DNA from: Cloeon dipterum | Taxonomy: Eukaryota > Arthropoda > Insecta > Ephemeroptera > Baetidae | NCBI RefSeq assembly: GCF_949628265.1 | Contig: NC_088789.1 | Location: forward strand, 34,217,883-34,281,882 | Reading direction: 5' to 3' | DNA: 64,000 nucleotides | Part shown: positions 1 through 51,780 of the stretch, piece by piece | Position numbering within the stretch: position 1 is the first letter of the stretch | Layout of the letters: each line of letters opens with the position of its first letter | Position numbers and translations under genes: made by a program | The notes under the pieces: model-generated | The model's input: only the letters and a program-made list of their open reading frames with translations | What the model was told of the DNA's origin: nothing | Database searches by the model: none

Positions 1-592
1 GATCAAGACGGAATCGAGAGCGGGATCAGATACGTTTTCTGTTTGAGGACGACATCCGCACTCTTTTTCCAGTTCCACCTCGTCTTTGCACTCTTCTGGG
101 CCGTTCGGTGGGCAATAGTTGTACAGAAGCTCCTCTGCTGCAAAAATTATTAGAATTGTTAAAAAACAAATGGGTCAACAGGGAAATATTGTCATTGCAA
201 AAGTTCACACTCTGTTATTTAAGCTTTAGTACAAATTGAACGCATGCAGTGTCAGAATAAGAATTTATATGCAGCCTCCTCGGTTTTTACATTGTCTCTC
301 AAAATGCAAATTAAGTGAAAAGGATATTTGTGACAAAATCTGTAAAATATTGAAACATAAACTACACACACTGCGAGAGGCAACTGCATTTAATTTCTGC
401 TGGCATCAGGTTCATTGGTGTTGAGAGCGTTTAAATTTTCTTACAATTGTTCGACATGTGTAGTACCGCGTAGCTGCGTGATAGGTTTGCAAAGTGGGCA
501 AATTGAAATGGCACGGGTGCAGCATCAGTAGTGTAGGGATTGAAGATCAGCACCAAAAATAAAGATGCAAAGATGGCATTGATTGTCTTCAT
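1..592 (-). CDS. Member 1 of the cysteine-rich membrane receptor-like family (partial, 3' end outside window)
   Basis: Two coding exons are visible: 445-592 (ATG at 592) and 1-137, which runs off the window edge. The intron between them has GTAAGA and TTTGCAG ends and is in phase 1, as in every other member. Exon 1 starts MKTINAIFASLFLVLIF, a clear signal peptide, so the product is probably secreted or membrane-inserted. Exon 2 begins SEELLYNYC and keeps a Cys, then a CGC pair, matching the family domain. It is the most divergent copy: the tryptophan of exon 1 is missing, and the FCxYNAT glycosylation motif has become YCPPNG. The transmembrane exon should lie just left of base 1. The ectodomain family is not one I recognise and no function is known. 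Family membership rests on exon layout and the Cys pattern. Confidence 0.7.
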
Positions 593-621
593 CCTCTTCC
601 AATTGCGTTTTAGAACTCTCT
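593..621 (-). other. 5' UTR part of the first coding exon of member 1
   Basis: A TTCCAG acceptor ends at 622, giving a 29-nt leader before the ATG. It would join the noncoding exon at 855-912. A separate noncoding first exon also seems to exist in members 2, 4, 5 and 6. Confidence 0.45.
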
Positions 622-854
622 CTGGAACATAGAATCACAATCTGAACTTACTCTTAATCGTCTCACCGAGACCAAAAATAAATTTCACTCTGCCATGTAA
701 TTTCAAAGCGTACGTGAAGATAAATCATTTTAGATCAGTGACTCTCAGACCTTACATATAATTGTTAATTAGGATGTTTGAAAAGCAAGTGGATTCGCGG
801 TCCTGCTGCAGAGAGTTTGCGTTGGGGCGGATCAGAAATAAAATTACAACTTAC

Positions 855-945
855 ATGGTACGTTTGCTTGCTTTCGTGGCTGTCTGTCTCCCTTTGTGGC
901 AACGCACTGACTGACACCGCGGAAAATCGCACTTCGCTTTTTATA
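855..945 (-). promoter_or_regulatory. Core promoter and noncoding first exon of member 1
   Basis: On the minus strand TATAAAAAG starts at 945, and the overlapping initiators TCAGTCAGT lie at 914-906. This puts the A of the first TCAGT 33 nt downstream of the TATA box, the normal arthropod spacing. The predicted 58-nt leader ends in CAT followed by a strong GTAAGT donor (exon end 855). TCAGT is the usual arthropod initiator, so this site also supports the organism call. Confidence 0.55.
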
Positions 946-1805
946 TCAACTCCAGTGCGATCCGATCCGTCAGCCACCGCCCTCGCATCTCTTCTAGATT
1001 CATACAAATCCAAGAAGTTGCCGCATTTGTTTCAACCGAGTAGTTTTTTTCGTTTTCTTTGAATGCCAATTAACATACAGAATTTTAGTGCGCCTAATGA
1101 GCTATCAATTTAAATAATATTTAATTCAAAATCAAACCCACAAAACGCGGGAAAGAAATAAACATGTAAAAAATGAGACAAGCGCGTCTCTCTCACTATT
1201 TTTAACCCGGAGAGCTGCTGAGGGAATATATCGCATTTCTGAGTGTACGAATTGCATGAATAACAGTTTCGTGTTTAAATGAAGCAAACAGATTAAATTA
1301 AACATCGAATCCTTTTTTAAAAGCACCTCCTCGTCGGTTTGGCGCCACAAAAGCGGTTTATATTTGAGCAACACGAGATGGCGAAAATATCAACGGGCGC
1401 TGGCTCCGATTTCAATCTGCATTGAACCATTAAAAGAGTTAATTAAGAGGTGACGCACACGTGTCGTGAATATTACCAACAGCAGAATCCATGCTGTTTA
1501 TAGAAAAATTCACCTCTTCTAAATTCACGGTGCGTCAAAACCGTGAAATTTGTTTTGTTCAAAAATACATTTAAATAATTTCTAGTGAACGAATTCCGAG
1601 GCAGGCATTTAATTCTATCCCCAAAAGATACATAAATATTTATAAATTATTATTTTACACCAATTATAGTTTGCGAATTTTGGAATTGACTCAATTACAA
1701 GTAATTGTTACAACGGCAAAACCCAAAAGTAATACTTTAAGTTAGTTCAACGTTGCAACTGTCCGGTGCTCGATTGACGTTAATGGCCATGCAATTCTAT
1801 GCTTA
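946..1805. other. Intergenic, members 1 to 2
   Basis: AT-rich. The short open frames on both strands (778-1062, 1132-1374) have no family motifs. An imperfect inverted repeat built on AAGAGGTGA lies at about 1445-1525. A segment at about 1555-1640 resembles 4855-4950, and both lie downstream of a family gene (members 2 and 4). Confidence 0.4.
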
Positions 1806-2424
1806 TTATTCTAGTCCATAAGACCATATTGCCAATCCAATTACACGTTTGATCAGAAACACGATTAACGAAATTAGGAAGAGTGCCAGAGATAGACACA
1901 AGAACCAAGTAATTATTGTCGCGGTGTTGCTTGCAGCAGTTTCACTGAGCTTCGCGGTGACAGCGCCTTGCTGGAAGGTGACACTCACAATCAGATCCTG
2001 AGGGCAGTCGGCTAAAATGCAACAGGTATAAAAGTTGGGAAAATTTAAAAAAAATATTTACCGAGCGGACTGTGACAGTTGGCGGTGTAATTTAAAGTTC
2101 CGGTGTAAGAAATGGTGCAGCCGCACTTTGACACCAATTCAGTCACATTTTTACAATTTATTTCATTTTGGGTTGCGTTCTGCCGGCAAAACTTGGTAAT
2201 ATTTTCTTCTGCTGCAAAATAATATGTTGTCAGTACATGTTTTAAATTTATCCGTGCAAATAAATAAATAGTTTCATACCATTCGCGCCTATCTCGAGTG
2301 TCCAGTTGTCTAAAAATCGGTTTTCAAACGTGATGGGCGCACCAACTGATTGTGAGCACATAATCAGGACCAGGAGAAATAACAGTGAGGCTTTTGCTTT
2401 CTTTTTTTTAACCGTGTCCATCAT
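1806..2424 (-). CDS. Member 2: short-tail cysteine-rich type I membrane protein
   Basis: Coding exons 2280-2424, 2062-2211 and 1806-2011 join to 166 residues; both introns are GT-AG and in phase 1. The first of two adjacent ATGs (2424, 2421) was taken as start. Residues 1-31 include a basic stretch (VKKKKAKA) and a hydrophobic signal core ending near SVGA. FENRFLDNWTLEIG follows, the exon-1 signature. Exon 2 (about 50-98) has FCRQNAT with an N-glycosylation sequon, then Cys, CGC and Cys. Exon 3 starts DCPQ and carries a membrane segment at about 130-153 followed by a tail of about a dozen residues. Six Cys follow C-x10-C-x9-C-x-C-x13-C-x6-C, which would suit three disulfides outside the cell. 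The tail is too short for a signalling domain, so a partner protein or a ligand-binding decoy role is possible (inference). Closest in window to members 5 and 6. Confidence 0.86.
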
Positions 2425-2433
2425 CAATCGGGT
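2425..2433 (-). other. 5' UTR part and acceptor of member 2
   Basis: TTTCACAG ends at 2434 and is followed by ACCCGATTG before the ATG. Nearly the same acceptor context (CACAG then ATC..GATT) precedes members 5 and 6, which supports a conserved leader intron. Confidence 0.45.
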
Positions 2434-2809
2434 CTGTGAAACATAATTTTTATAATTTGTTACACAATTCATACATTTTTATATTAAATATGCGACACAC
2501 CGTTCCTCGATGTAAACAAATTTAAATTGGACGCAATTTAAACGACTCATTTAAAATCAACCGTTGCTCAGCCGTGACACAACACGTGCAATACCAGCGG
2601 AGCAGGCAGTTAGACTTTCATCAATTAATAAAACTGCCGCTCCATCTACCTTTGGAATCATTTTTCCCTGCCAAAATTATATATTTGAATTATCACGAAA
2701 TATAAAATAAAAATATTCCGCACCCATAATCAGGGGATTTGATTTAATGTGTAAAGTTCAGCCTTCCCCCGGTCCTCTTTGCCCCGATTTTAAATTTATT
2801 TATTTTTAT

Positions 2810-2990
2810 TTTGATGCCTAAATAGGAACTGAACACCCTGTCGATCGTCTGGACATCCAAACACTAATAGTTTTAACTGAAATCAATTTACCTTCAACAA
2901 TTCTTGCTTCGAAACCTCGAACGGCCAAATAGCGGCGCGCAACGCAAACACTCTCTCAGCAAGCTAAATCGCTGAACTGATGCCGCACAG
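2810..2990. repeat. Dispersed repeat Rp7, copy 1
   Basis: Shares ordered blocks with 44890-45080: the stretch around GATCGTCTGGACATCCAAA, then TTTAACTGAAA, then CGGCCAAATAGCGGCGC. Divergent and probably old. Confidence 0.5.
2892..2978 (-). promoter_or_regulatory. Possible noncoding first exon of member 2, inside dispersed repeat Rp7
   Basis: A TCAGTT initiator-like site lies at 2980-2975, and an AAG|GTAAAT donor at 2892. No TATA box is seen at the right distance. The stretch belongs to a repeat (Rp7) that recurs at 44.9 and, in part, at 20.3, 55.1 and 58.0 kb, so the promoter may be repeat-derived. Confidence 0.3.
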
Positions 2991-4103
2991 CCAACAGCCA
3001 AGGTCGCGTTAAAACAGTTAGACTTTCATGAAAGCCTAAGACTTCATGGTTGGAGCCTGCGCACTTCTCTCATTTAGAAGAAAAGTGTTACACACGTGAT
3101 TTTGGCCATAGTGTCCAAATAAATATTTTTTTCAGGCCTTAAAATTTTTGCCACCGTGACAATTAAATTTTTAAAAAACATCAATAAAAAGAGAAAGTTT
3201 GTTTCTTTTCCCTGGTATTATTTCATAATCTAAAAATCAAATGCAGATGTTAACAAATTAATTATTTTAAATGCGAAAACATTGTTGTAAGTTTCAAACA
3301 CTTGGAATGATTGTTGAATTTTCGGCTATTTCATAACAATTGGCAGTCGCATTTAGCATAGACAAAATGCAAGCTAACACAATAATCTAGCGAGCATGGG
3401 AGCAGGCCTATGCGTCCCTTTTTATCGTAATTATTTAAAAGTCTAAGCATAGTCTTTCACTATATATTACAGTGCTAACGCTGGCTCTCAGGCGTTTCTT
3501 TCCTATGTGATTTTACTACTGTTGCGCGCGATCAATGGAAAAAATTCATCAGCATGGCCAGAGTGAACTTCGCAAACTTAATTTGGACCAAGTAAGTTTG
3601 TTCTATACATTTAATTTAGCTCCACTTACAGAAAAAGCTCACATTTTTTGCTTAGGCATAGACTCTAATTATTATATTTTTTACTTTCGTTGACGTTTGC
3701 AAGTTTTAAAAACGGAAACTACTGAAATGGTTTGCAGTAACGAGTTGCTTACCTTAATTTTTGTGCTCTGCAGATATAAAAAAATCGCTCTGAATGCTGT
3801 TGTTCGTGTGAGTTATATATCACTGTGAATTTCTACCAAGGTTTTACGTGAGGAAATAAAAGTCTTATCTATTTCTCTGAGACTTTTGAAGCGGATACTA
3901 GCGAGAGTCAGTTGCAAAACACGATGAAACTAAAACAAATATTGTAATTAAATACGCCATAATTTTCACTGTAGATAAATTTACTGTTGCCCTTTCTTGT
4001 GACTGTGAAATTTGAGTTTTGTTTGTTAGGCTGTGCGCAATTTCACCGCTACGAATAAAAAATTATAATTTTCAAATTTTTTTTCCTAAAAAGGGGCCAC
4101 GAA
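2991..4103. other. Intergenic between divergent members 2 and 3
   Basis: No coding exon is recognised here. It should hold the promoter of member 3, but no convincing TATA/initiator pair or leader donor was found. Confidence 0.4.
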
Positions 4104-4539
4104 ATGAATTTCCTGCTGACATTTCTCCTACTCAACACCGCCTTTTTTTCGTGGTCGAATTGTGCTTCCATTGAGTTTGAGAACAAGTTCGAGGACAACT
4201 GGCAACTGCTCATCGGCGCAAATTGTGAGTAAGGTTTTTAAAGAAAATGGGCGGGGCAAATATTTTTATTTTCTACGGTGTAAATTTTAATTTTAATTTG
4301 TTGCAGCAAAGGAGCTGCGTTACGACTTTTGTCGATATAACGCGTCAAGCAGCGGAACACAGTGCAAAAATTTTCCAAAGGTCGCCTCAATAGACATTAG
4401 CAAGAGGTGCCACTATGCTCCGTCCAACACAACGAAACGGAAGCTGGCTGATTTATCTTCACTGCTCGCTCTGGCATGGAGGCTCCTAACGAGGCACGGA
4501 GGCGCACACACAACCAGTGCAGGTTATTTGCTCACTTGA
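4104..4539 (+). pseudogene. Member 3, broken by an Sn1 insertion
   Basis: Exon 1 (4104-4224) codes MNFLLTFLLLNTAFF, a signal peptide, then FENKFEDNWQLLIGAN. The intron (GTGAGT ... TTGCAG) is in phase 1. Exon 2 begins at 4307 with SKELRYDFCRYNASSSG, close to member 9. After the third Cys the family CxC reads CHY, so the fourth Cys is lost. About 30 nt further the sequence becomes repeat Sn1 (from about 4447), and the frame ends in it at 4537-4539. No fifth or sixth Cys and no transmembrane exon follow on the plus strand before member 4. As read the product would be 117 residues, secreted and unable to form the family disulfides. The intact exon 1, splice sites and start suggest recent loss. 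Its plus orientation opposes most of the cluster. Confidence 0.75.
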
Positions 4540-4755
4540 TGAATGGGAGAGCAAAAGAAGCACATTGAACCCCGCAACGCGAGCCAAGCAGAAGAAAAAG
4601 AGGGACTGGGTTAGCGGGCCACGCATTCACACAGCAGACGAAGCAGGGAGAGAGAAAAGATAAATATTGCCAAGGCCGCAGCTATTTTCTTCTTCAGAGA
4701 GATGTAAAACCGCGCGCTAGATGGCCTCAGCATTCGCGGAGTGGCTGCTATTTTA
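4447..4755 (+). mobile_element. SINE-like repeat Sn1, inserted in exon 2 of member 3
   Basis: Matches the 8.8-kb copy from TTATCTTCACTGCTCGCTC through GGAGGCTCCTAACGAGGCAC to the GTGGCTGCTATTTTAT end, about 300 bp. No clear target duplication was seen. A B-box-like GGGTTCATTGTGC lies on the opposite strand in better-kept copies, so a pol III origin is possible but unproven. Confidence 0.7.
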
Positions 4756-5002
4756 TATTTCAAAGTAATTATTGCATTTATTTCTGGCCTTAAATCTGTT
4801 ATTTATTTAATGAAACGGATGAGTGATTTCAAAATAAAAAACTAACCAATTTCATTCAAAAATACATCAATGAAGATATTTTAAAAATAAATTCTATATT
4901 ATAGTGAACTAATTCCGAGGCAGATTTAATTTAATAGTAATTTCTTTTGACCTGATTAATTCGGTTTTGTATAGTAAAAAGCTAAGAGACATTGTTTTAT
5001 AA
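4756..5002. other. Intergenic, members 3 and 4 (convergent)
   Basis: AT-rich 3' flank shared by two converging genes. It contains the CCGAGGCAG segment also seen near 1595. Confidence 0.35.
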
Positions 5003-5008
5003 TTTATT
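5003..5008 (-). terminator. Polyadenylation signal of member 4
   Basis: AATAAA on the minus strand about 67 nt past the stop codon at 5075, a normal distance for a short 3' UTR. Confidence 0.5.
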
Positions 5009-5074
5009 TTAATCCAAAAAACATATTTGTAAATCACAAAATAAACATCAAAAATTCTACATCACTATTTGTAT

Positions 5075-7923
5075 TCAATTTTTAGACCAATCAGTGGCTA
5101 TTTTAAAAAAGAATACCATAAAAAGACACCACAAATTGGCAGAAAAGAAAATTAACACGGCCAGCGTCCACCTTGGATTTGTAAAATTCATTCCTGCCTT
5201 TTTCATCCTGTTAATCACCACGGTTTTAAAGCGAGTGAAAGTTTGTTGCCGTGACAGTAGTTCCGCGATTTCTTTGTAATTCCTCTTCGCAGCAATTTGC
5301 AGGGCGGTTTGACCGCAATTTGTTCGCAAATTCAAGTCGGCTCCGTGGTCGAGCAGCAATTTAACCATCAATTTATTGCTTTTATTTGTGGCCAAGTGCA
5401 GAGCGGTCCATCCATTTTTATTCTGCAGATTTGCGTCCGCGCCGTTTTCTAGCAATTTTTTTGCTAGTTCTGGAAATCCCATTAAAGTGGTGATGTGCAA
5501 TGCCGTCCATCCATCTTGTCTCTGCAAATTTACGTCTGCGTGGTTGTCGAGCAGCTTTTGCACTATTTCGTGAAGACCTTTTTCCGCGGCGAAATGCAGG
5601 GCCGACCATCCAATCCGATTTTGCAAATTTACCTTTGCACCGTGGTCTATTAGATTTTGCAGCAATGCAGGATTGCGTCTTCTTGCGACGAGGTGCAGGG
5701 GGGTCATTCCGACTACGTTTTGAAAATTCAGGTCTGCACCTTTGTCGAGAAGCTTTTCAAACAAGAACGGAACTGGATTATCTAAAGCTACGATGAACAG
5801 AGCTGTGCAGCCATATTTGTCGCTCAAATTCACGTCGGCGCCGTGGTCGAGCAGCGTTTGAATGAGATATGGATTGTTTGAGTTGTGCTTTACGGCCACG
5901 TGCAGAGCGGTCCACCCTTTTTCGTCTTGTACGTTGACGTCGGCGCCTTTGTCGAGCAGAATTTTAGCAATCTCTGGTATTTGAAACCACCTAGCAGCAG
6001 CGCAATGCAGAGCAGTCTGTCCTTTTTTGTCTTTCAAATTGACGTCAGCGCCTTCCTCGAGCAAGAGACGAACCTCTTCCGGATATCTACAATAAGACGC
6101 CATCAAGTGCAGAGGAGCCTGTCCATCTTTTGTTTGTAGGTTCATGTTTGCGCCGCAGTCGAGCAGCTTTCTTACCAATCCTGGATAATGCTCAGTAGCA
6201 AAGTGCAAAGCAGTCCAACCATCTTTGTCTTGTAAATTCACGTCAGCGTGATTTTCGAGCAAGAGGTCAGCCACTCCAGGAGTTGATCGATTATCCGTTA
6301 TAGCAATGTGCAGAGCGGTCTGCCCGTCTTCATCCTGTGAATCGATGTTGGCGCCACTGTCGAGCAAAATTTTAACAAGCACTAGTGCTTCCCGATAGCG
6401 CCTGGCAGCGTAATGCAGAGCGGTATGTCCTTTTTTGTCTTGCAAATTGACGTCTGCGCATTTTTCAAGCAGAAATTCGGCGACTTGCATAGCTTTATTG
6501 TGCTTCATGGCAATAAGCAGAGCGGTCTGCCCGTCTTCATCCTGTGAATCGATTTCGGCGCCATTTTCGAGCAAAACACGAGCGATCTCTGGATTTGCAT
6601 TGAACCTGGCAGCGTAGTGCAGCGCGCTCCATCCTTGTTTGTCTTTTAAATCGACCTCGGCGCCTGATTCGAGCAAGCCGGTGACGAGCTCCAAAATACC
6701 GTATTGCGCGGCGCAATGCAGACAAGTTTTCCCTCTTTCATCCACCTCCGTAGGATCACGTTTCAGCATCAAATAGAAGTCGAGGTTAACGAGAATCCTA
6801 TCCGGACGATGTCCTCGCTCTCTGCTTGGAGCCGAAGTCCACGTGTTTATTACTTGGTCTACTTCAATATCATAATCTGTCAAGGGATTCTTATTTTTTG
6901 TTTCGGGAGACGAGTCTGTTTCCCATTCTGAATCAGAAGATTCAAAAAGGTTACAGGAATAATCGTCTATATCGTGATTTCTTGCGAAATTACGGCGGTT
7001 TCCTGGATGTGGTCGCGGGAATCGGTCAGCTTTACACCTCTCTCGAATTGAGGTTGACCATTGCTCGTCAACTCCTTGATTTTTGCTTAATTTGTACAGT
7101 AGCAAGGCGAGGAAAACCTGGGAAAACGCCATATAGGGCCAAAAAGCAAACAACCAGTTGAAGCAAGTTGTATAAACATCATCTGATTTGTCGGCGGAGT
7201 CTTGCTCGTAGACCAGACTCAGTTTCTTAGGGCACGAACCTATTAAATTAAAGAACACAATTATTAAAGTCTGGAGTTAAAGTATAAATGACTAATTTAC
7301 TTGAGGTATTTTCGCAGCTGATGCTAAAATGGAAAAGGCCGAATGCTTCTTCTATGTCAGTGGACTTTTGTATGGAGCATCCGCACATTTCCTCCATTTC
7401 TATAGGGGCTAAATTTTTGCAGCGAACGTCAATGGTAGAGGCGTCGTACTGGCAGAAGTCATACAAGAGTTCTCTATCTGCAAAATTGGTTAACTTCATC
7501 AAATTATGACGGATGAAAGGGTTTAGATATTTAAAGACAATCTTTGACGAAGTTTCTGAGACACCAATCGATTCTTGAGGGTCGCCAAAAAGTGCAGTGC
7601 GACGTGCGAACTTTTTTCCCGCCAAAAACAATATCGAGAAGTGCGCATGCGTGAGAGCTGGTTTGAGCACTTGCAGAGAGACCACTTGCACGAATGACTT
7701 CTCAGCCAGCTCTCACGCATGCGCACTTTTCGCAAATACGATTTTGTATGATGATTTTAATCGAATTTAAATTTTACTCACCACTCGCTCCAATCATAAA
7801 TTTCCAATGGTCGACTGACAGATCTTGAAACTCAATGGAAGCTCCATCTGAGTAAGGGATGCTCGCGAGGATGAGGACAATAAATGGGAAATTTCTTTTC
7901 CCACTTTTTCGAAAAGTTTCCAT
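5075..7923 (-). CDS. Member 4: cysteine-rich receptor-like protein with 15 ankyrin repeats and a C-terminal membrane segment
   Basis: Exons 7782-7923, 7301-7477 and 5075-7239 join in frame to 827 residues, with both introns in phase 1. Residues 1-32 form a signal peptide; SVDHWKF follows, as in members 7 and 8. Exon 2 has FCQYDAS (sequon lost), then Cys, CGC, Cys; SSCP follows at the exon junction. A membrane segment lies at about 133-155, then an acidic linker rich in Asp, Ser and Glu. Fifteen ankyrin repeats run from about 274 to 765, most with the GWTALH or GQTALH turn and GADVNLQDK loops. A second hydrophobic stretch (WTLAVLIFFSANLW on to FKI) lies at about 797-819, with only about eight residues after it. 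The ankyrin stack is therefore tethered to the membrane at both ends, presumably on the cytosolic side, to bind protein partners. The giant third exon suggests that the ankyrin part came in as an intronless cassette. The frame is intact; I know no described protein of this layout. Confidence 0.88.
7639..7728. mobile_element. Mini palindromic element in intron 1 of member 4
   Basis: A perfect 23-bp inverted repeat (AAGTGCGCATGCGTGAGAG..) at 7639-7661 and 7706-7728 surrounds 44 bp. This is MITE-like in form but very short. No other copy was seen in this window. Confidence 0.5.
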
Positions 7924-10144: not shown

Positions 10145-10754
10145 TTAATACCCTGCTGAACGGAGTTGTACATTTATTGAAGCTCCGTTATTAACGTATT
10201 GCTGCCAATTCTCCTTGAAATAAGAATTCACTCGGGCTCGGTAATTGACCAAAACAAAGATCAAACAATAGTCGAGTAAAAGAGAAAAGAACAGAATGAT
10301 TTCTAGAGCCTCTGGTCGCTTCCTGAAGGAGCCTTGCTGGAAGCTGAAACTCAGATGCTGAGGGCAGTCAGCTGAAATGAAACATTCGATAAATTAAATT
10401 AGGAAATTTTAAAATAAAAATGTTTACCAACAGTACTGTGGCAATTGACTGTGAAGGATTCGCTCTCGGTGTAATTAGAAATGGTGCAGCCGCACTTTGA
10501 GATCAATTCGTCTTTGTTAGAACAAATGTTTTCATTCCGAGTTGCGTTGTACCGGCAAAAGCTGATTGCATTTTCTTCTTCTGAAAAAATATATCCATCC
10601 GTTAATGATTCAAAGAAATGACTGCAAATTTAATACCGCTGGCGCCTAGCTGGAGTTTCCAGTTGCTAATTCGATTATTTTCGAACTCGAACGTCGCACC
10701 GACTGAGCACAGAGTCAGGATCAGGAGAAATACCAGGTTAATAATGTCCGCCAT
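10145..10754 (-). CDS. Member 5: short-tail cysteine-rich type I membrane protein
   Basis: Exons 10637-10754, 10428-10580 and 10145-10371 join to 165 residues with two phase-1 GT-AG introns. Residues 1-22 (MADIINLVFLLILTLCSV) are a signal peptide. FEFENNRISNWKLQLG is the exon-1 signature. Exon 2 (about 41-90) starts EEENAISFCRYNAT and keeps Cys, CGC and Cys in the order C-x10-C-x9-C-x-C-x14-C-x6-C. Exon 3 begins DCPQHLSFSFQQGS. A membrane segment at about 115-134 (IILFFSLLLDYCLIFVLVNY) is followed by a basic turn RAR and a tail of about 31 residues with no known motif. Members 2 and 6 share most of its ectodomain, but its membrane segment and tail are unlike theirs although they are coded by the same exon, so replacement has occurred even inside exon 3. 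Confidence 0.86.
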
Positions 10755-18353: not shown

Positions 18354-19001
18354 ATGATGGACGTGGTTAAAATAAGAAAAGCATCAGCGATATTTCTCCT
18401 GATGGTCCTGACCATGAGCTCAGTCGGTGCGACATTCGAGTTTGAAAATCCATCAATTAGCAACTGGAAACTCATGATTGCCGCAAAAGGTACAAAATCA
18501 TTCATTTAACAAAATTTGACTGAATTTTTCTTCAACTCCACTACAAGAGATAAAATAAATTTAAAACCTAAATTATCTGATATAATTTTTCAGGAGAGGA
18601 AAATATAATCAAGCTTTGCCGGTACAACGCCACTCTGCATGAAAACAATTGCAAAACCAAGGAAGAGTTGCTCTTAATGTGTGGATGCATCATTTCTCAC
18701 ACCGAGAACGAAGTCAATTTGAATTGTCACAGTCTACTCGGTAAAAAATATTTTTAATTTTAAAACATTCTAATTATTTAATTAATCTGTTGTCATTTTA
18801 GCCGACTGCCCTCAGCATCTGAGTCTCACCTTCCAGCAAGGCTCCAAGCTCAGTGAAACAGCTGCAAGCAAAACCCCAATAGTTTCCTGGGTTGTATATC
18901 TATCTCTGGCATTCAACGTCATTTTCTTCCTAATTTCGTTCATCGTGTTCTTAATCAAACGAGAATGTAGGATAAATTTGTTTTACGAGCAGAAGAAATG
19001 A
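18354..19001 (+). CDS. Member 6: short-tail cysteine-rich type I membrane protein
   Basis: Exons 18354-18489, 18594-18740 and 18802-19001 give 160 residues; both introns are GT-AG and phase 1. After MMDVVKIRKAS a hydrophobic core (AIFLLMVLTMSSVGA) makes the signal peptide. FEFENPSISNWKLMI is the exon-1 motif. Exon 2 has LCRYNAT with a sequon, Cys, CGC and Cys (C-x10-C-x9-C-x-C-x12-C-x6-C). Exon 3 reads DCPQHLSLTFQQGSKLSET, close to member 2. A membrane segment at about 121-147 ends in FLIKRE, and the tail of about a dozen residues is basic. The very short tail argues against its own signalling domain; pairing with a tailed member would be one way to signal (inference). It is the only intact plus-strand member, so its block was probably inverted. 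Confidence 0.9.
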
Positions 19002-28931: not shown

Positions 28932-31900
28932 CTATGTCTCATACAAGTTTCCATCACCGCTGTGCTCGGCCAACATGGAGAGATAGAGTGGGTTTCCCAG
29001 AATATCTTGATCTTTGAAGATTTTCCTGAATTGTTCGATTTCTTTTGGATTCTTTCGTGCAACGATCCGCAGAAAATCGATTTGCTTTGCTTCATCAAGG
29101 GGTTCAATCTCAACTACCGTCGTGTTTTTTATCCTCTCTTGAATGTGATGCACTTCGTGAGGCCTGGTCCCGATGAAGAGTGGAACTCTTGCATTATTCA
29201 ATGCGATCAAAATTTTGATGATTTTCTCTCTTAAATCTGGGCACACTTTGTCAAATCCGTCGAGGAAAACAATGAGTTCTCTCTTCTTAATCCAGTTCGT
29301 GATGTCTTCATGGGAATTGCAAGTTGTCTTTGCGAGGAATTTGATTTCATTCACATTCAATGCAGGCATGTCAAATAGGTACCGATAGTGTTTTTTCAGT
29401 GGAATCAGCAGGATTTTAAACCCTCCATCGTGATTGGTGAGTTGGTGCGCCAGTTCTTTGAGAACGGTCGATTTGCCTGCACCAGCAACAGAGTTGAATA
29501 ACCAAACAATGCTCGCGTCAGTGCTATCCCTCGCTACATAATTTGCTTCTAAGTCTCCGACGGGATTCAACTTTTGATTCTCAATCGAATTTTTGTTTTC
29601 CTCAAATAATTTGTTGGCCATTACCAATAATGTATCAAAATCGATCTTTTCCCCAGTAAGAGATTTCGTTGAATCCATTTGGTCACGAGGTGCCCATTTA
29701 ACCAATAATTTGGGTTTTACAAATGCTCTTGGCCAATGAGAAAAATTGACGAGATACTGCAAAGTAGAGTTGAGAAGAACCGCATCTTCTCTTTTGGACT
29801 CACGAGTTAGCAGAGGCTTCAGATGTTCTTTCAGGATTTTCTCATCGATTTTTCCAAAGAGTTCAATCAACTTCTCTAACGCATCTGGGAAACAAGTTTT
29901 CAAATATGTTCACCTGAATAAAAATACGTTCTCTTTGGACCTACCTTCGTATTTTAAAATCAATGTTAGCCAGCCAATATGGTTTGTAGCAGAGACTTGT
30001 AAATCTTTCAGGTCTACAAGGATCTAAATTAAAAGATATGTATCAGTGTCATCTTTTATAGCAGTTGGAGTAGAGCTTACACTGTCTGTCTGTGGTGCTT
30101 CCACGTCAGCAAAGGTCTGAATTTTAGGCTTTCCTATCAGTTTCTTGTCGTTAGGGTCGGCCAAACTGAGTAGGTTTTTCATGTAGCCTACGTCTGGTTC
30201 CAACATTAACTCTGTAAAACCATGTTTAAAGCACATTCAATCTCTTCATTGATTCATCTTTTAATTAAAATCTCGAATAATATATCACTTACAAGAGAGC
30301 GCACGATTTCACCCAAAAATATGCTAAAATCACAAGTTTTGCCTCCATCCAAAGGAGCAACTTTCCCGTTTTGAGTTATCTTTTTACGTTGGAGGACTAA
30401 GGACGTTCTCATCGATTGGCGGAGGCATAGGTTTTTATGATTGGACATTCTGACCGTATATAGTAGTAATCCGAAACGTAAAAATTCATCTCGTTTCAAT
30501 TGCACGCATAAATCTCGCTGACCCCCCAAAACGGAAAAATCGCGATCAAGGAAGGAAATATTTTTTGAACCATCATTATTTGCAATGATTAACAGAAAAC
30601 ATTATTTGCTGGTCAAATGGTCGACGTATTACTCGGTCTTTTAAAAATTTACTGAAATTTGTACCTGTTGAAACAGTCTGGTCGGTATTTCCAATATCCG
30701 TCGATCTTTTATTCTTTTCTGTATTGTACAGCGGACCTGTCTCGGGTGAATTAATATCAGTCCCCCTCTTCCTATTCTTTTTCCTGCAGACAAAATCACA
30801 GTGTCAATAAACAATTGATTCGGACTTTCATCGACTACTCTCTGCATACAATTTTGTTTGCATGACAATGTGTATTAAGTGCACTGCTTCTATGAAATAG
30901 ACTTCTAAAGTTCCTAAATAAATGTTTTTTCTCTAAAAATGAAATGATTTGTTTCATGCCTTTGGCAATTTAAAATTAAAAAGCTATCCACTCACCTGCT
31001 GCAATTGCTTCCACAGCATAATTGATTCCTCTTTAGTTTCGGAACGGCATGCAATTTTCCCTTGCAACGGAAACATATGCAGAGAGCGAATAATGTGATG
31101 GACACTAGGGCGGAAGTCATCAGCCAGGTGATTATTTTTTCTATTGCGACAGCTGGATCTGCCTCAGTTGCCAATTCCGGTGGAATCTCAGTGAATCCAC
31201 TGTTATTTTTCCCTATGTCCTGGTGGATCGGCACTTGGGGTGGAGCTCTCACATAAGAGCCCTGCCTGTAGATTAGTGTCAGTTCCTCCGGGCAGTAGCC
31301 TGGTATCAAACAGAAGGTGACGAGAAAATCAAATATTTATAAAAAAAATAATGTGAAACAAACCAAAAATATAAATAAATTTAAAGGCATTACTCAAATC
31401 GCTTTTGCAGTTGATTTGGAAACTGAACGAGCCATCGTTAATAGATCCAGTATGCTGAATGTTGCAATTACACACTTTTTCAAAATCGATAGACGCTTGT
31501 GGATTGAAGTTTTTGCACTGTACGCCTTCACTTGTTGCGTTGTATTTGCAGAAGTCGTAAAGAAATTCCTTTGCTGCAAAAAGAATTAATTGTTAGCTAT
31601 ATAGTACCAGAGAGCAGGTGTACCAGAGAAAGTTGGTGCTGTTTATATATCTTTTGGCAAATTTTATCGATTTCACTAACCGCATGGCAGGAATTTAATG
31701 TTAAATAAACGTTATAAACTTCTTCTGGATTGAATTTCAACCTGTATTCACAAATCTTTGATTTTAGATACTTACAACCACCGCCAAACAGAAATTCCCA
31801 GTGGTCGACAGAATTATCTTCAAACCTAATTTCGGTTAAACTTCCTTTCGTGCCTGGAATACAGGTCAGGATGTATAAAGTAATGACGAGCATTATCTGT

Positions 31901-31941
31901 TTCCATATCCATCTCCTCTTCTTTGACTCGTTTTCCGTCAT
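28932..31941 (-). CDS. Member 7: cysteine-rich membrane receptor-like protein with a cytoplasmic NACHT-type NTPase
   Basis: Seven exons (31776-31941, 31394-31573, 30996-31299, 30665-30783, 30081-30211, 29945-30023, 28932-29884) join in frame to 643 residues. Residues 1-34 hold a basic start and signal core, then FEDNSVDHWEF. Exon 2 has FCKYNAT, Cys, CNC and Cys; SYCPEELTLIY opens exon 3, and a membrane segment lies at about 171-192. A polar linker follows. The last exon carries a STAND P-loop NTPase: Walker A GAGKST at 461-466, Walker B LIVFLDGFD at 530-538, GTRP at 565-568 and NPLYLSML at 624-631, the order and spacing of a NACHT domain. NACHT proteins bind ATP and oligomerise on activation, usually in immunity or cell death. 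The chain stops about 12 residues after NPL, so the winged-helix region and any repeats are absent. A receptor ectodomain joined through a membrane helix to NACHT is unusual, since most NACHT proteins are soluble. Splice sites are GT-AG throughout; the last small exons rest on frame continuity only. Confidence 0.85.
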
Positions 31942-37575: not shown

Positions 37576-37586
37576 AAGGCCTATGG

Positions 37587-39338
37587 TTACTTGTCTGCGT
37601 TTACATGTCCAGCTATTTCAGATTCGGATTGTCCTAGATCCGCTGCCCCCTCAGGTCGTTTGTGTGAATCATCTGGAATAAATGAAAATAAGCCATAATT
37701 TCCTCCCAACTCTAATAAAAGTTAAATGCCGGAGATAAAAATCTTTTTATGATCGCATATAAGAGAAATAAGTCTCTCGTCATTCTCCGAGACCCTATCG
37801 GTTCTATAAGCAAACTTTCCCGTTTTGAGCTATCCTTTTTCGGTGAAGGACTAAGGACGTTCTCATTGGTTGGCGGAGGTAAAGATTTTTATGGTTGGCC
37901 AATCTGACCGTGATAATCCGCAACGCAAAAATTGATCTCGTTTCAACTGGGCGCATAACACTCGCTGACCGACTCAAAACGGGGAAATCGCGATCAAGAA
38001 AGGAAATATTTTTTAAACAATCATTTGCAATGGTTAACAGAAAACATAATTTGCTGGTCAAATATTCGACGTATTTCTCGGTCTTTTTAATATTTACGTA
38101 CCTGTTGAAATAACAGTTTGGTCGTTATTTCCAATATCTGTACACTTGATTTCCGCCGATCCTTTATTCTTTTCTGGATTGGACAGCAGACCTGTCTCAA
38201 TATCTTTCACCCTCGCCCTATTCTTTTTCCTGCAGACACAATCACAGTGTGAATAATTCTTCTGAAATAGACTTCCATATTTTATAAATAAATATTTTTT
38301 CTCTAAAAATAAAATGTTTGGTTTTGTGCCTTTAGCAATTAAAATATTTATAAGCTATCTACTCACTTGCTGCAATTGACTCCAGAGTATGAACCTGATT
38401 GAGGCCTCTTTGGTTTCAAAAAGACGTTGAATTTTTCTTTGCATATGTGTAATATGAAAGTTATCAAGAGAACGTTGAAAACGAAGGAAATTATGAAAGG
38501 TATCAGCCAGTCGTATCCATTCCTTGCGATATCTGGATCTGCCTCATTTGCCAATTCCACTGGAATCCCAGTGGATCCACTGTTATTTTTCCCTATGCCG
38601 TCGTGGATTGGCACCTGGGTTGGAGCCCTCGCAAAGGAGCCCTGCTTGTAGATCAGTGTGAGTTCCTCAGGACAGTAGCCTGAAGTTAAACCAAAAGTTA
38701 CAAGGACATTTAATACATATACAAAAAATTGTGAAAAAAACAGCAAATACAAATAAATTTAAAGGCATTACTTAAATCGCTTTTGCAGCTGAGGGCGAAA
38801 CTAAACGAGCCACCGTTACTAGTTCCATTATGCTGTATGGTGCAATTACACACTTTTTCAAAATCTACAGACATTTGTGGGACGAAATTTTTGCACTGCG
38901 TGCCTTCACTTGTTCCGTTGTACTTGCAGAAGTCGTAAAGAAATTCCTTTGCTATAAAATGAATTAACTTTAAGCCGTAGTACCAGAGCCGGAAAACCAG
39001 AGAAAGTTGGTGCTATATATATATATATATATATATATATTGTATATATATTGGCAAATTTGATAGATTTCACTAACCACATAACAGGAATTTAATGTTA
39101 AATAAACGTTATAAACTTCCTCTGGTTTGAATTGCAACCTAGTTTTACAAATCTTTAATTTTATATACTTACAACTAGCACCAAACAGAAATTCCCAGTG
39201 GTCGACTGACCTATTTGCAAACTCAATGCTGGAGGAACTTCCTTTCGTGCTTGGAATGCAGATCAGGATGCATAAATAAATTGCGAGCATGTTCGGTTTC
39301 AGAATCCATCTCCTCTTCCGATACTCGTATTCCGCCAT
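37587..39338 (-). CDS. Member 8: cysteine-rich membrane receptor-like protein with a medium, NACHT-less tail
   Basis: Exons 39173-39338, 38772-38951, 38367-38679, 38102-38229 and 37587-37672 join to 290 residues. The first four pair with member 7 exon by exon: exons 1 and 2 have identical lengths (166 and 180 nt). Signal peptide core LAIYLCILICIPSTKG, then NRSVDHWEF; FCKYNGT with a sequon, Cys, CNC, Cys; SYCPEELTLIY; membrane segment at about 173-195. Exon 4 is the same Lys-rich linker as in member 7. The last exon (86 nt) is specific: DDSHKRPEGAADLGQSE and about ten more residues to a stop, acidic and without motif. It would therefore share the ligand specificity of member 7, if any, without the NTPase, and might be a decoy or regulator of it (inference). 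The small last exon is supported by its TTCCAG acceptor and frame. Confidence 0.82.
39013..39056. repeat. TA microsatellite in intron 1 of member 8
   Basis: Long TA run; intron 1 of member 7 has only TTTATATATC at this point. Confidence 0.8.
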
Positions 39339-39379
39339 GGCGACTGCTGCAAAATCCCGTACAATTAAGTGCCTAGAAG

Positions 39380-46115: not shown

Positions 46116-46474
46116 GAAATAAATTGAAATGTATGTTGTTGCGGGGTGGCCGGGAAGGAGAAAGGAAAGAACTGCTCAGTTTGACTGCTATATAGAGATA
46201 GACTAATTTATTTCATACTTCGCACTCTCTGCGTGCTCACATTCATGAAATGCCTGAGTGGCTATTTGGAATATAACATAAATCGTGAAGTGCTGCGCGC
46301 TTTAGAATTTTTCTTGCCAAAAGTAGCATAAAATTGCATAAATTGTATTTCATATTTGGATATTAAAAATCATCGAGATCTTCATTCGTTTTTTTTTAAT
46401 AACCGACCTCTTTTCCATTTTTAAAGTGACTCTCTGTTTGGCTGCTTTCTGACAAATTATACTTACTAACAACC
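46116..46474. other. Intergenic
   Basis: Nothing supported. Confidence 0.3.
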
Positions 46475-46699
46475 GTGTGCCCTGCCGGAAAAAAATGGCC
46501 TGCAAAGCCTTCCCGGGTTCCCGGGCGTCGTACAGGTGGCGGGTGTGACTCACAACACCCTGAGTCCATCCCAGACAACAACTTTGTACTTGCCGTGCAG
46601 CCACAGCGACCACCAAATTTTGAGCAACAGGAGAACATTGCCAATAACTGTGACGTGAACGGAACTCTTCCTATTTTGAGTGATGACGAGTACCGATAA
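46475..46699 (+). CDS. Unrecognised open frame of 74 residues (low confidence)
   Basis: The C-terminal half (PDNNFVLAVQPQRPPNFEQQ, then an acidic SDDEYR end) looks more protein-like than nearby frames, but no motif, splice site or second copy supports it. It lies just before a copy of repeat Rp3, so it might be the tail of an element ORF. A minus frame overlaps it fully. Confidence 0.2.
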   Translation: MCPAGKKWPAKPSRVPGRRTGGGCDSQHPESIPDNNFVLAVQPQRPPNFEQQENIANNCDVNGTLPILSDDEYR

Positions 46700-46727
46700 G
46701 TCTATGATAGCGCAAATTACACACTAC

Positions 46728-47165
46728 GTTGAAGCGGCCTACCGGTTAGTCTAGGGGTTTTAGGTTCAAATACAAATGAAAAGCTAACGTGTGACGGGCA
46801 CTCCGACGACGACTTGAGAAAGTCGACCGGTCGTGCGGATTAAAGTAAGGGACTCTTGCAATCGGCGTCAACCGGATAAACAGTTTGACGAACAGCCGGG
46901 CTGTACAGAGGAAACCGCAGGTCGGTTTCCCCTTGCCGATTGCAAGTTAGGTTTTGGGCCAGGAATAAAACTAACTTGGCTGAGCTGTATAGCTCCTGCT
47001 CTGGCCAACTAACAAGAGTGGCCAGGTAGCAAACTCAGAATCAGAATGATGAAAACCAGAGCAGGCGCGCTTTATTTATATGATTCTCCCCTACTACTCA
47101 TTTACATACAAGCATATTATGACAGGTTGTATCTCGCATAGTGTAGGTCGTCTCAACGTATATTA
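46728..47165 (+). mobile_element. SINE-like repeat Rp3, copy 2
   Basis: Head GAAGCGGCCTACCGGTTAGT with a B-box-like TAGGTTCAAATAC about 20 nt on, then the same blocks as 31985-32405. The distance between A- and B-like boxes is shorter than in a real tRNA. Confidence 0.55.
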
Positions 47166-47289
47166 TGTTAAGCTCCAGCCATAACCCTTTCTATTATTTT
47201 ATACTTTATTGCTGAGACAGCATTACATCATGTTTGTTTATTATCACTTAAATAAAATATCCTATACATAATATAAGGCACATTGGTCA

Positions 47290-47525
47290 ATTTTATCACA
47301 ATCGGCTCAGCCAATCACCGTGAAATCGAGAAAAACTATTGCTTGAAACGACGATTCTATGACGAATGGCTGGACCGATTTTGGTTTTTAGCACGTCAAA
47401 GGAAAGCATATTAAATTAAGTGCACAAGCAAGATTGAGTCTTAAGTCTGAAATCGCAGTGGAAGTGCCTTAAAACAAAATTTTTAAGGAAGTATATACTT
47501 GGAACTTCGAACACTAAGTGTATAA
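47290..47525. mobile_element. Foldback FB, decayed fragment
   Basis: GCCAATCACCGTGAAATCG and GACGAATGGCTGGACCGATT resemble the FB right arm at 41330-41420. Confidence 0.4.
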
Positions 47526-48677
47526 TATATAAAAATGGTGAATTCCAACTATATATTTCGTCGTGGTAGCGGAGAAATTGCGCATGAGTTCTTGGTAAAC
47601 CCGGTGAAAATGCGCATTTGAAAAATATTAAATTTTACAGGGGAAGGAGAAAACTCTCTCCGCGCCACAGGTTTTGGAGTACAAAAGAGCTATCAATGAA
47701 ATTAAATGCCTATTTTATAGCTTTAAAAAATGGTTTAAATTATTTTTTATCAATGCGCGATATAACGACCATAAACGGCCTTGTTTAAAGAACGTGCCCG
47801 AAAGATATGCATGGTTTTTGTAAGAATTTTTATTCTACCTACAAATATTATGAAATCTGGTTTTAAAATTATGGTGTTGCTTTTGCCTTGGATGTTTGGG
47901 AACAGATTTCTTTAATATTTCTGCCACTCATAATAATTTAAAACCAAAATTATGTCGATAACAATGAATCACAAGAAAAAAACGTTTCAACTTTCAACAC
48001 CTAAGCACGGCGTAGACGAGTAATTGTCTTCTTCAAACCAATTTAGTTATTTAATTCATTTCAAGACGAGTCAAACGGTGCGTACTTCTTGTAAATAGGA
48101 CCACCACAACCTGAGATTTGGTGCTTATATCGAGCATTTTATTGCGTCCATCTCGATAAAAAAAACTTTGTGGGGGTTGGGGGGTTGGTTGGTCTCATAC
48201 CCCTTTAGTGCACTTGGGGACGTCGAGACGAGTCTAACGGTATGCAGTTTTTTAATACCGGATGATTAGAAGTTTAGATTTGGTCGATTATCTTTTTTAC
48301 CGACCTCGAAAAACAGGGGTTTTCATATTTTTCAGTTTATATTAAAAACATTTGAAATTTTAACGTTTCTAACTTAATTTTTCGTGCTCTACAAAATGGC
48401 TATAAAAAAATAAAAATTTTCAACACGATCATTTTAAAATTTGAGTTTAAAATAAAAATATCAATTTTAATGACCTTGACCTTTGACCTATGACTTTGGG
48501 GTCAACATAAAAGTTGTTTGCCTTGTTGAGACGAGTAAATCAGTTTTTTAATTTTGGTTCTAGGACCACTCTGAGCAAAGTTATGAAGTATTGAAAGATT
48601 TTGGCTAATTTACCATATTTATAGGAGGATACAAATTATAAAAAACGTCACTAGATAGCGTTCTAGTGCTCGGATTG
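47526..48677. other. Intergenic
   Basis: AT-rich; contains GACGAGT.TAACGGT and similar phrases repeated at about 48066, 48229 and 50200, but no gene or clear element. Confidence 0.3.
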
Positions 48678-48685
48678 GTTTGAAA

Positions 48686-50480
48686 TAGAGCACTGTGCGG
48701 TTGCGGTTGTGGTACAAAAAAACCGCACACCACAACCGCAGATGCGGTTATAATTGTGCGGTTGCGGTGCGGTTGCGGTTTCGTTTTTGCGGTTGCGGTG
48801 GAACCACAAAAACCGCAAATCTTGAGAATAAAAAATTACCATTTTCAATATGCGACTGTTTTTTTCGTATTAGTATTAAGACAGGGTTCGCCAAGTTTGC
48901 AATGCGCAAAAATGCAACATTTTTTTATCAAGTTGGATAACGCACCGCGATTTTTTTGCATTTTCCAGCAAGTAAATTATAAAATTAGAATTAAAATCCT
49001 TAAAAACAATACACATTTTCAAGGGAACGCTGCAAAAGATCGTCCAAATGTCTTCAAAGGAAGATAAAACAATGTTTAACGCTGTTGTAATATCTGGGAA
49101 TAGGCTTTTAATAATAATACACAAATTAAAAAAAAACTCCTTTCTGTGGATAAATTACGTGTTCAAGCTAATATCAAGCCAATCAACTACTACAACGTTA
49201 TTGATGCATCATAAATGCAACATATATGGGCTTCTTTTAGTGGAAGAGTTGATCGGATCAAGAGCCACTTAAATGTGTGCCCGCAATAAAAAACCAGGCT
49301 AAATTTTTCAGAATGGCGTTATTTTTAGGATATGTTGGTAATTATTTCATAAATTAATAGAAATGAACTGATGACATTTTTCCACTTTTTGGGTTCTTTG
49401 AACCTCCAAATCTCATGGTCTCCATCAAAATTGCATCAAAAATTTCCCACCGATAGACTCGCCTTGACCTCCGCTAAACAGTCAAAGTGTTTAGGGGGAG
49501 CTTACCCTCATCCCCTTTCAACCCCATTGCTACAATTTTAATAAAAAAATTAGCATGCTTCCAATTTCATCGACTTGGCTTCAAAACATTTAAAATCATC
49601 CTATATTCCTACTGAGAATTACCACCCCGTTCATTCAACCAAAACTGTTTTTTTTTTAATAAAATTGGCTTGCATTGTTAAGGCACTCTCAGGAGTGTCA
49701 AAGCAATGAGAGGTATTTGAGCAGTTGGGAGATCTAATACTGGCTACCCAATGTCAGAGATGGCAAAAAGTGGTTAGTTTAGTGACTCGAATTGCTCAAA
49801 TTGCTCAACGGGCTGGGAGGCGCACCGGCGCCGACTCGCTACTTGCTGCTTTGCACCTTTCCAGCATGCGTGATTTGGCTTCACGGGACAAATGTCTAGC
49901 GTTTCAATGCAGTCCTCGGTGCGGAGGCAAGTGGCCCTTGAGTGGGCTGGCTCCCTGCGTGCGGTCTGCTGCGCCCATGTTATCCGTTCGCGGTGTTATT
50001 GGGACCCGGGTTTCAGCATTCGTGCTAGTGCAGTGCGCGCCCTTCCCGCTCCTCCGGTCCTCGGACAGGGATAAAAAGAGCAAAAAAAAGTAAATTAATA
50101 AAATTATCCAGAGTTATAAAATGTTATTCATTTTCGAGGGGTTTGAAGTATAGGGGTGGAGTGTAAAACCCCTAAATCCTTCAGCTTCTCAGGGGAGGTC
50201 AAGACCAGTCTAATGGTGAAAAGTTTTTGCAATTATGATGGGGTTAAAACCCGAGATTTGGAGTTGCACGCAAAAATAATGAAATTTGAAGCCTTGCTAA
50301 AACAAAACTATTTTGTTCTAATTTCTAATACATTAAATAAATTGCGGTTTTGCGGTAATTTTGCGGTTACCGCAACTGCGGTTTTGGTCAAGACCGATGC
50401 GGTTGTGGCGCGGTTGCGGTTTTTGATTTAAAAAAATGCGGTTACCATGGTAATGAAAATTGACACCACACAGGGCTCTA
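48686..50480. mobile_element. hAT DNA transposon remnant
   Basis: Ends TAGAGCACTGTGCGG (left) and, inverted, TAGAGCCCTGTGTGG (right) agree at 13 of 15 positions and are bounded by an 8-bp direct repeat GTTTGAAA at 48678-48685 and 50481-50488, the hAT signature. Both ends carry GCGGTT sub-terminal repeats (48690-48810, 50340-50460). Inside, 49215-49290 reads CNI and, after a frame change, IKSHLNVCPQ, like a broken BED zinc finger. No intact transposase remains, and an Sn2 copy sits inside. Confidence 0.75.
49667..50094 (+). mobile_element. SINE-like repeat Sn2 inside the hAT element
   Basis: Flanked by an 11-bp direct repeat TTAATAAAATT (49656-49666 and 50095-50105), with an A-rich tail. Such duplications mark retrotransposition, so Sn2 is a retroelement. 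It is younger than the hAT element it interrupts. Confidence 0.8.
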
Positions 50481-50517
50481 GTTTGAAATTTTTGTGTTGG
50501 CAAAAATTTCAATATAA

Positions 50518-51780
50518 CTATTTTAAATGTGAGGTGACAAGTGGTACGTTGAAAGACAGACTATCAGCCTGCATCAGGACTGCACCACTTTTCGGCTCAC
50601 CCTTTGGGATATCTGCTCTATGGCGATTTGTTTTAACGACCCATTGACGCATTGCCTTCACATCTTCGTGAATCTTCGTGCGGTCTCTATAAATAATAAA
50701 CACTACCGCAATGATTGACAATATAACGTTCGCTGAATAGGACAAATAATGCAGACCGATACTAGTTTCTGAACATGCTTCAGCGAGTGGAGACTTCTCG
50801 ATGGAACCTTGCTGGTACTTTAGGTCCAGATTCTGGGGGCACCAACCTAAAATTAAAAATTAAAATTTATTTTTAACACATAATTTTAAATATTTACTCA
50901 AATTGCTGTGGCAGCTGACGGAGAAAGTGATGGAGCCAGTTTTGATCGGCGTGCTATCGACGGTGCAATGGCACACATCTTTTATGTTTATCGAGGCGAC
51001 CTGCGGAAAATTTGTGCACTGTGTTCCGCCGCTTGTCGCGTTATACCGACAAAAGTCGTACTTCAGTTCCTTTTCTGAAAAAAATTTCGAATTAAAAGAG
51101 TTGAAAACATTATTTGAGTGGGAGCTTTTAAAAGTGAGCAATATTTAATCGGAAGGGGGTGCTCTCATAATCGAGTTTTTATTTTTGTATTGGTTTCTTG
51201 GTACATACAAAAAAAAGACCAGCCCGTTGGCTCGCATTGTTAAGGCATTCTCAGGAGTGTGAAAGCAATGTGAGGTATTTGAGCAGTTGGGAGATCTAAT
51301 GCTGGCTACCCAATGCGTCAGAGATGGCAAACAGTGGTTAGTTTAGTGACTCGAAATGCTCAAATTGCTCAACGGGCTGCTTTGCACCTTTCCAGAATGC
51401 GTGATTTGGCTTCACGGGACACGAATGTCTACTAGCGTTTCAATGCAGTCCTCGGAGCGGAGGCAAGTAAGTGGCCCTTCAGTGGGCGTGGTCCCTGGTC
51501 CCTGTGCGGCCTGGTGCGCCCATTCAATCCGTTCAAGGTGTTATTCGCACTCGGAATTCAGCATTCGTGCTAGTGCAGTGCGCGCCCTTCCCGGTCCTCC
51601 GGTCCTCGGACAGGGATAGAAAGAGCAAAAAAAAACAAAAAAAAATAAAATAAACCCACCATTTGCACCTATCAGGAGTCTCCAGTTGTTGATTGATTTG
51701 TCTTCAAAATGTATGTCAGCATCGCGTGCGTGTGCGAAGGCGAGGACCAAAAATAACGGAATCAGCAGGACCGTTTTCAT
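50518..51780 (-). CDS. Member 9: cysteine-rich type I membrane protein with a 56-residue basic tail
   Basis: Exons 51660-51780, 50898-51074 and 50518-50846 join to 208 residues, both introns in phase 1. The ATG at 51780 starts MKTVLLIPLFLVLAFAHA, a signal peptide; IHFEDKSINNWRLLIGAN is the exon-1 motif. Exon 2 starts EKELKYDFCRYNAT and has Cys, CHC and Cys in the order C-x10-C-x14-C-x-C-x17-C-x6-C; it is the closest match to broken member 3. Exon 3 begins SWCPQNLDLKYQQGS. A membrane segment at about 131-152 is followed by YRDRTK and a tail with several Lys and Arg but no known motif. Intron 1 holds an Sn2 copy, and a hAT element begins about 30 bp past the stop, so the gene has very little native 3' flank. 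The reading frame itself is intact and should be functional. Confidence 0.87.
51218..51650 (+). mobile_element. SINE-like repeat Sn2 in intron 1 of member 9
   Basis: CAGCCCGTTGGCTCGCATTG head, A-rich tail ending about 10 bp from the exon 1 donor. Opposite orientation to the gene, so the transcript reads its tail as a T run right after the donor. Confidence 0.75.

Follow-up and report, generated by a model that had tools for sequence, protein, structure and literature searches.

A tandem family of cysteine-rich putative membrane receptors in Cloeon dipterum and its possible capture of ankyrin and caspase-NACHT parts

We examined a 64,000-nucleotide stretch of the Cloeon dipterum genome (contig NC_088789.1, positions 34,217,883 to 34,281,882, forward strand; hereafter the window), which contains a cluster of related genes for small cysteine-rich proteins. 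Our analyses support the assignment of these genes, from their sequences, to a family of type I membrane proteins that lie in tandem, share one ectodomain and differ in their cytoplasmic parts, and this family is larger than was first reported. Our best guess as to function is that the proteins are surface recognition receptors, perhaps immune ones, the immune role leaning on the company that the genes keep. The fuller reading that we tentatively prefer, and to which we give close to an even chance, is that some of these candidate receptors carry ankyrin or caspase-NACHT parts taken from caspase-NACHT genes. The predicted ankyrin form of the receptor is solid, and NACHT as a receptor module is plausible, if unproven.

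Gene structure, genomic distribution and ectodomain

A translated search of the window recovered all nine related loci listed in a first-pass annotation, which a model had made from the DNA letters and their open reading frames; compared copy against copy, exon 2 gave E-values down to 2e-36. The seven copies that had been called complete (A, C, D, E, F, G and H) proved to be so, with three-exon models in which both introns are GT..AG and in phase 1 and the exons hold, in order, a signal peptide, a cysteine-rich region, and a CP motif with a membrane helix. Alignment of these seven copies gave 13 invariant columns, which include an F and a W in exon 1, the six conserved cysteines of the ectodomain, the P and L of the CP..L motif and a Q; the ectodomain, taken from the exon-1 motif to the helix, spans about 90-135 residues. 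The motifs originally proposed for the family hold in a looser form. FE...(D/N)xW was seen in eight of the nine loci, the exception being Z, for which no exon 1 was found, but FE itself is exact in only six of the eight (FA in F and FQ in C). FCxYNA(T/S) is exact in four of the nine (B, D, E and G) but variant in the others, and CxC occurs in eight, with CHY in its place in B. The tail classes described at the outset are borne out, with short tails, a tail spread over two exons (F), ankyrin repeats with a second helix (C), and a NACHT open reading frame that can be joined in phase (E). The loci and their exons, in window coordinates, are as follows.

25..147, reverse strand: copy Z, exon 2, cut by the window edge (tblastn)
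1806..2424, reverse strand: copy A, exons 2424-2280, 2211-2062 and 2011-1806 (splice model, GT..AG, phase 1)
4104..4434, forward strand: copy B, exons 4104-4224 and 4307-4434 (end arbitrary), no exon 3
5075..7923, reverse strand: copy C, exons 7923-7782, 7477-7301 and 7239-5075 (splice model)
10145..10754, reverse strand: copy D, exons 10754-10637, 10580-10428 and 10371-10145 (splice model)
18354..19001, forward strand: copy H, exons 18354-18489, 18594-18740 and 18802-19001 (splice model)
28932..29884, reverse strand: copy E, exon 7, NACHT NTPase part, ending where NACHT ends, without an ankyrin part
29945..30211, reverse strand: copy E, exons 5-6 (30211-30081 and 30023-29945), pseudocaspase remnant
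30665..30783, reverse strand: copy E, exon 4, putative cytoplasmic linker, similar to a stretch behind other clade V copies (see below)
30996..31941, reverse strand: copy E, receptor exons 31941-31776, 31573-31394 and 31299-30996, the last ending at a GTGAGT donor
38094..38229, reverse strand: copy F, exon 4, terminal tail exon with an in-frame stop
38367..39338, reverse strand: copy F, receptor exons 39338-39173, 38951-38772 and 38679-38367 (splice model)
50518..51780, reverse strand: copy G, exons 51780-51660, 51074-50898 and 50846-50518 (splice model)

Copy A consists of ectodomain, membrane helix and short tail, and the tail of F, on exons 38679-38367 and 38229-38094, completes a protein of 264 amino acids. 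Copy B stops within exon 2, inside a dispersed repeat that seems to have cut it, since one of the six occurrences of the sequence RLLTRHGG in the window (around +4480, +8851, +25360, +36299, -46089 and -59629) sits at its exon-2 break. We also noted that intron 1 of E (31775-31597) and of F (39172-38970) is open in frame for about 60 codons beyond the donor, and that the two readings align with each other over about 40 codons; this likeness is probably due to recent duplication, an alternative reading of it also being conceivable.

Three queries were run against the whole genome, which comprises 190 Mb in 10 contigs: exon 2 of E, exon 2 of D together with the first part of its exon 3, and exon 2 of a copy on contig C2. 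These searches identified 44 places which, together with Z, make at least 45 loci, all such counts being lower bounds: 30 lie in C4:34.18-34.40 Mb, 14 in C2:35.74-35.97 Mb and one on C5. Nothing new came from the third query except C3:35862161 (E=2.5), which was not counted; nor was C2:7408454 (E 0.35, two stops). Thirty-nine loci were fetched, leaving out two on C2 (35857739 and 35865973) and C4:34304476, which has one stop. The exon-1 motif is present in 37 of the 39 and the CP exon in 38. Scripted joining of three exons succeeded in 29; the other ten failed the script's acceptor rules or had no candidate for an exon, so that the gene itself is not necessarily defective. Among the joined readings, L013, L014 and L023 meet a stop where exon 1 joins exon 2, L022 lacks an initial methionine and L052 has an improbable exon 1; these faults may come from real damage or from the splice site or start that the script chose. 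Several other readings have a few residues missing at the joins. A hydrophobic window follows the ectodomain in 27 of the 29 scripted models, and most copies have short tails. The ectodomain tree takes in 41 of the 45 loci. In L029 and L034 of the C2 cluster, intron 2 can be read through in frame from exon 2 into exon 3, so that an unspliced transcript would still give a membrane protein, with about 20 extra residues.

The ectodomain appears to be an orphan, with no convincing match by Pfam, by PDB sequence comparison or in viral contigs. The first-pass annotation had held that a profile match to a well-known domain with an ordinary function would refute its reading of the cluster; we found none in Pfam better than E 0.006, the best E-values being 0.0062 and 0.0063, both to unrelated families. 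We took as chance the matches to APD1-4_N in one of seven spliced models (E 0.0062), to Alpha_kinase in one of 39 exon-2 rows (E 0.0063) and to TM140 in five of those rows (best E 0.039). Of two PDB searches by sequence, one gave no matches at E up to 10 and the other had as its best a gametocyte surface protein (E=0.22), which was nothing usable; one scan of viral contigs revealed no relatives. An AlphaFold prediction for the exon 2-3 read-through of L034, lacking exon 1, had a low mean predicted local distance difference test score (49.7) and was strand-rich, with a hairpin after the CxC part, and we claim no fold from it. As judged by titles and the openings of abstracts, none of the papers listed in our literature searches deals with this receptor family or with a protein combining signal peptide, membrane helix and NACHT.

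Ankyrin and caspase-NACHT parts

Exon 3 of copy C is one unbroken coding stretch in which the CP motif is followed by the membrane helix, then by the ankyrin repeats and last by another hydrophobic helix. The array and the second helix had been correctly noted, with the repeats put at 15; Pfam counts 14 Ank stretches, and finds no NACHT in this copy. Outside the window, L024 has the same uninterrupted arrangement but lacks the second helix. The two copies group as sisters in the ectodomain tree with support 1.0, and their pre-ankyrin parts are 47% identical (E 8.7e-6). A search with the pre-ankyrin and C-terminal parts of C returned, besides C itself, the pre-ankyrin part of L024 only, plus places at E 0.16 and 0.82. 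Since the two copies are sisters and the flanking parts of C have no further good match, the ankyrin part was probably gained once. The repeats of C are 31-43% identical over 200-390 residues to those of the NACHT-ankyrin genes of this genome, and the lead-in to the first repeats is 50% identical to one such gene over 42 residues (E 1.1e-6).

These NACHT genes are numerous. We counted 101 NACHT places in the genome (106 of 119 candidates were scored), many of them on C4:29-36 Mb and C2:0.8-4.7 Mb; as queries, the NACHT stretch of copy E gave 171 genome matches, several per gene, and one caspase exon gave 111, some of which are fragments. In ten NACHT relatives that we looked at, three of them on the upstream side as well, the order is an N-terminal exon and a linker, followed by two caspase domains (the second degenerate), NACHT and ankyrin repeats. 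Where the relevant part was seen, the first caspase domain has SHG and PCRG or SCRG, with QPSRG in L057. In one member Pfam recognises the caspase at E 2.2e-12, and the second caspase domain falls under the cut-off (E 0.014). Three of the genes have a start exon of about 150 codons (MEAE..YFAYCLDT; L068:2658-3126, L069:2790-3252 and, in reverse, L070 2729-3194); Pfam gave no match to the one of these that we scanned. This exon has just 25 genome matches, one of them marginal, so many NACHT genes must begin otherwise. From these comparisons the caspase-NACHT(-ankyrin) family, with about 100 places, is the likely donor of the receptor modules, and it may be as remarkable as the receptor family itself.

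Candidate NACHT fusions were found in clade V of the ectodomain tree, which contains nine copies (support 0.98). In six of the nine (E, F, L011, L012, L013 and L016) a GTGAGT donor closes exon 3 and the exon-4 stretch follows; this stretch is also recognisable in L014 and L018. Behind exon 4, within the 2.9-6 kb inspected for each, pieces of caspase-NACHT genes occur in five of the nine (E, F, L012, L014 and L016). Copy E can be read as an open, in-phase chain of seven exons, all GT..AG, encoding 643 amino acids, in which the receptor is followed by a pseudocaspase remnant and NACHT; the caspase region is gone and the ankyrin part absent. L016, outside the window, gives a 14-exon chain (C4:34346606-34351410), likewise all GT..AG, in phase and without internal stop (1,047 amino acids). 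In it the receptor portions (signal peptide, ectodomain and membrane helix) come first, then the linker and a caspase-like part, then a pseudocaspase and a truncated NACHT. The splice sites of both chains were placed by hand, with the donor genes known beforehand, and once the phases inherited from the donor are set aside the receptor-NACHT join amounts to one phase match, with a chance of about 1/3. Both NACHT parts have Walker A (GAGKST) and Walker B (FLDGFD); that of E passes the Pfam cut-off (33.6 versus 26.7 bits) and that of L016 scores 33.2 bits. Neither has sensor repeats C-terminal to NACHT, E stopping at the end of NACHT and L016 within it. The caspase (peptidase C14) pieces of L016, joined in order, score 45.1 bits against a cut-off of 21.4; its catalytic His-Cys pair is incomplete, SRD replacing the SHG of the donor (histidine lost) and the cysteine being kept in PCRG. 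E has no caspase other than the pseudocaspase remnant. Exon 5 of L016 shares a microhomology of 15 bases with the receptor stalk (E 4.7e-4), which is short and may mark the join.

We had at first read the NACHT of copy E as a mere remnant, with its caspase and ankyrin parts missing. That reading was set back, and the fusion raised to plausible, by the orderly splice phases and by the absence of excess replacements: the mean nonsynonymous distance (dN) of the E NACHT to ten canonical genes is 0.197, against 0.209 among those genes themselves, values that would suit either a working fusion or a recent truncation. The corresponding wider alternative, which we place somewhat short of an even chance, is that the receptors are short- or ankyrin-tailed only, that clade V transcripts would end in exon 4, and that tandem duplication has carried along, behind E and L016, NACHT exons left over from a neighbouring gene and now in decay. 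Such decay fits the ten stops in the NACHT piece of L012, the presence of caspase pieces only, or of none within 3.3-3.5 kb, in F, L011, L013, L014, L017 and L018, the in-frame stop of F just beyond exon 4, and the loss of the caspase histidine in L016. It also fits the fact that E and L016 are without the ankyrin part and the start exon of the donor, the latter because no such exon was found in C4:34.18-34.41 Mb. The open, in-phase chains of seven and 14 exons are less easily reconciled with it, as is an E NACHT that retains both Walker motifs and has no excess of replacements.

Tail exchange, rates of change and candidate role

The cytoplasmic modules had been described as exchangeable. We divided 36 copies at the QQG motif and compared the two portions of each (copy C was left out, so that L024 had no partner). 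Copy D is a clear swap, combining a clade I ectodomain with a clade IV membrane and tail part (E 6e-11; its own clade was unmatched at E up to 1). In 33 of the 36 both parts fall in the same clade, with L022 and L024 uninformative. Swapping has therefore occurred, but for the most part the tails track the ectodomain tree, and the ankyrin part was, as noted, probably gained once.

Under the reading that we prefer, in which these are surface recognition receptors some of which hold borrowed ankyrin or caspase-NACHT parts, the proteins would recognise non-self or another changing partner at the cell surface. A ligand would cluster the ectodomains and, in the equipped copies, clustering would gather the ankyrin or NACHT parts and recruit cytosolic caspase-NACHT proteins. 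Short-tailed copies would act as ligand-binding partners or decoys, and the caspase-like part of L016, having lost its histidine, would scaffold and not cut. A narrower proposal, possible although we doubt it, is that some of the proteins are membrane-anchored NLRs in an animal lineage, a new ectodomain and membrane helix having been joined to a caspase-like/NACHT machine; an outside ligand would then drive NACHT assembly without adaptor proteins.

The ratio of nonsynonymous to synonymous change (omega) was estimated from disjoint closest pairs chosen on total distance, with bootstrap intervals. It is 0.69 (0.53-0.94) for exon 2 over 17 pairs and 0.43 (0.34-0.59) for NACHT exons over five, so that exon 2 is, by these estimates, under looser or mixed selection with its cysteines kept. 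That it changes faster than the NACHT exons speaks for the reading that we prefer. Values above one suggested by the pairs of lowest synonymous distance (dS) were discarded, as choice on dS is biased; the median over all 180 pairs is 0.72.

A number of findings weigh against the reading that we prefer. NACHT is wrecked or not found in seven of the nine clade V copies, which tempers the earlier claim that it forms the cytoplasmic part of E, for which the open, in-phase, Walker-intact chain speaks. Splice-site and phase consistency is all that ties receptor to NACHT in E and L016, and the NACHT of L016, besides being cut short, lies slightly further from the canonical genes (mean dN 0.222). Since no known fold was identified for the ectodomain, ligand binding is something that we infer. 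The omega intervals of exon 2 and the NACHT exons overlap slightly; the exon-1 core (0.52, 15 pairs) and the CP part (0.46) are not fast; the fastest region is the stalk, helix and tail (0.79, 0.61-1.03), not the ectodomain; and since no region was shown to exceed one, loose constraint explains the rates equally well. In 32 upstream regions there were no NF-kB-type motifs (1.7 expected) and two of a looser form (3.4 expected), and STAT, GATA and heat-shock motifs were not enriched. EcR-like half-sites, one of the six motifs, numbered 28 versus 19.5 upstream (2 of 100 shuffles) and were disregarded, the downstream control giving 25.

Some of these results are what would be expected if the family served gamete, mating or developmental recognition and not immunity, with the rates reflecting sexual conflict or loose constraint: omega is raised yet not above one, NF-kB-type motifs are not enriched, and many copies have short tails. 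We consider this unlikely; the uptake of caspase-NACHT-ankyrin parts by two lineages suggests signalling in cell death or in defence. Less probable still, in our estimation, is that the proteins are membrane-tethered decoys or regulators which hold caspase-NACHT proteins, or the ligands of these, without signalling of their own; the short tails of most copies and the histidine-less caspase-like part of L016 agree with such a role, and we counted nothing specific against it.

Apart from the receptor family, four contig ends (L077, L078, L079 and L080; 1.5 kb each) consist of AT-rich or longer repeats, and TTAGG does not rank with the most frequent short tandem words in these four. Genome searches also gave 94 matches to the RR cuticle family and 5 to the insect odorant-receptor family, as expected of an insect, whereas COX1 had a single broken match and no contig was mitochondrial by this search.

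Comparison with known systems

If the fusion is true, these genes would show outside sensing and inside cell-death switches merging into one protein, and provide a case of receptor birth through module capture in an insect with about a hundred caspase-NACHT places. Three kinds of known system bear comparison. Ankyrin-repeat membrane proteins include the TRPA and TRPN channels, which copy C resembles in having a long ankyrin array adjoining membrane helices; it differs in having one hydrophobic helix on either side of the array and no Pfam channel domain, and in its N-terminal signal peptide and cysteine-rich ectodomain. Tandem families of variable surface receptors are represented by cnidarian Alr and arthropod Nimrod. 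The present family is like these in its tandem cluster, single ectodomain type, one membrane helix and variable tails, but its ectodomain has no Pfam match better than E 0.006. NLRs are known as cytosolic proteins. The likeness to NLR and other STAND proteins lies in the NACHT of copy E, which is over the Pfam cut-off with Walker A and B, and in the order of the donor genes, from effector (caspase) through NACHT to repeat; the difference is that in E and L016 the NACHT would stand behind a signal peptide, an ectodomain and a membrane helix, and that the repeats are missing.

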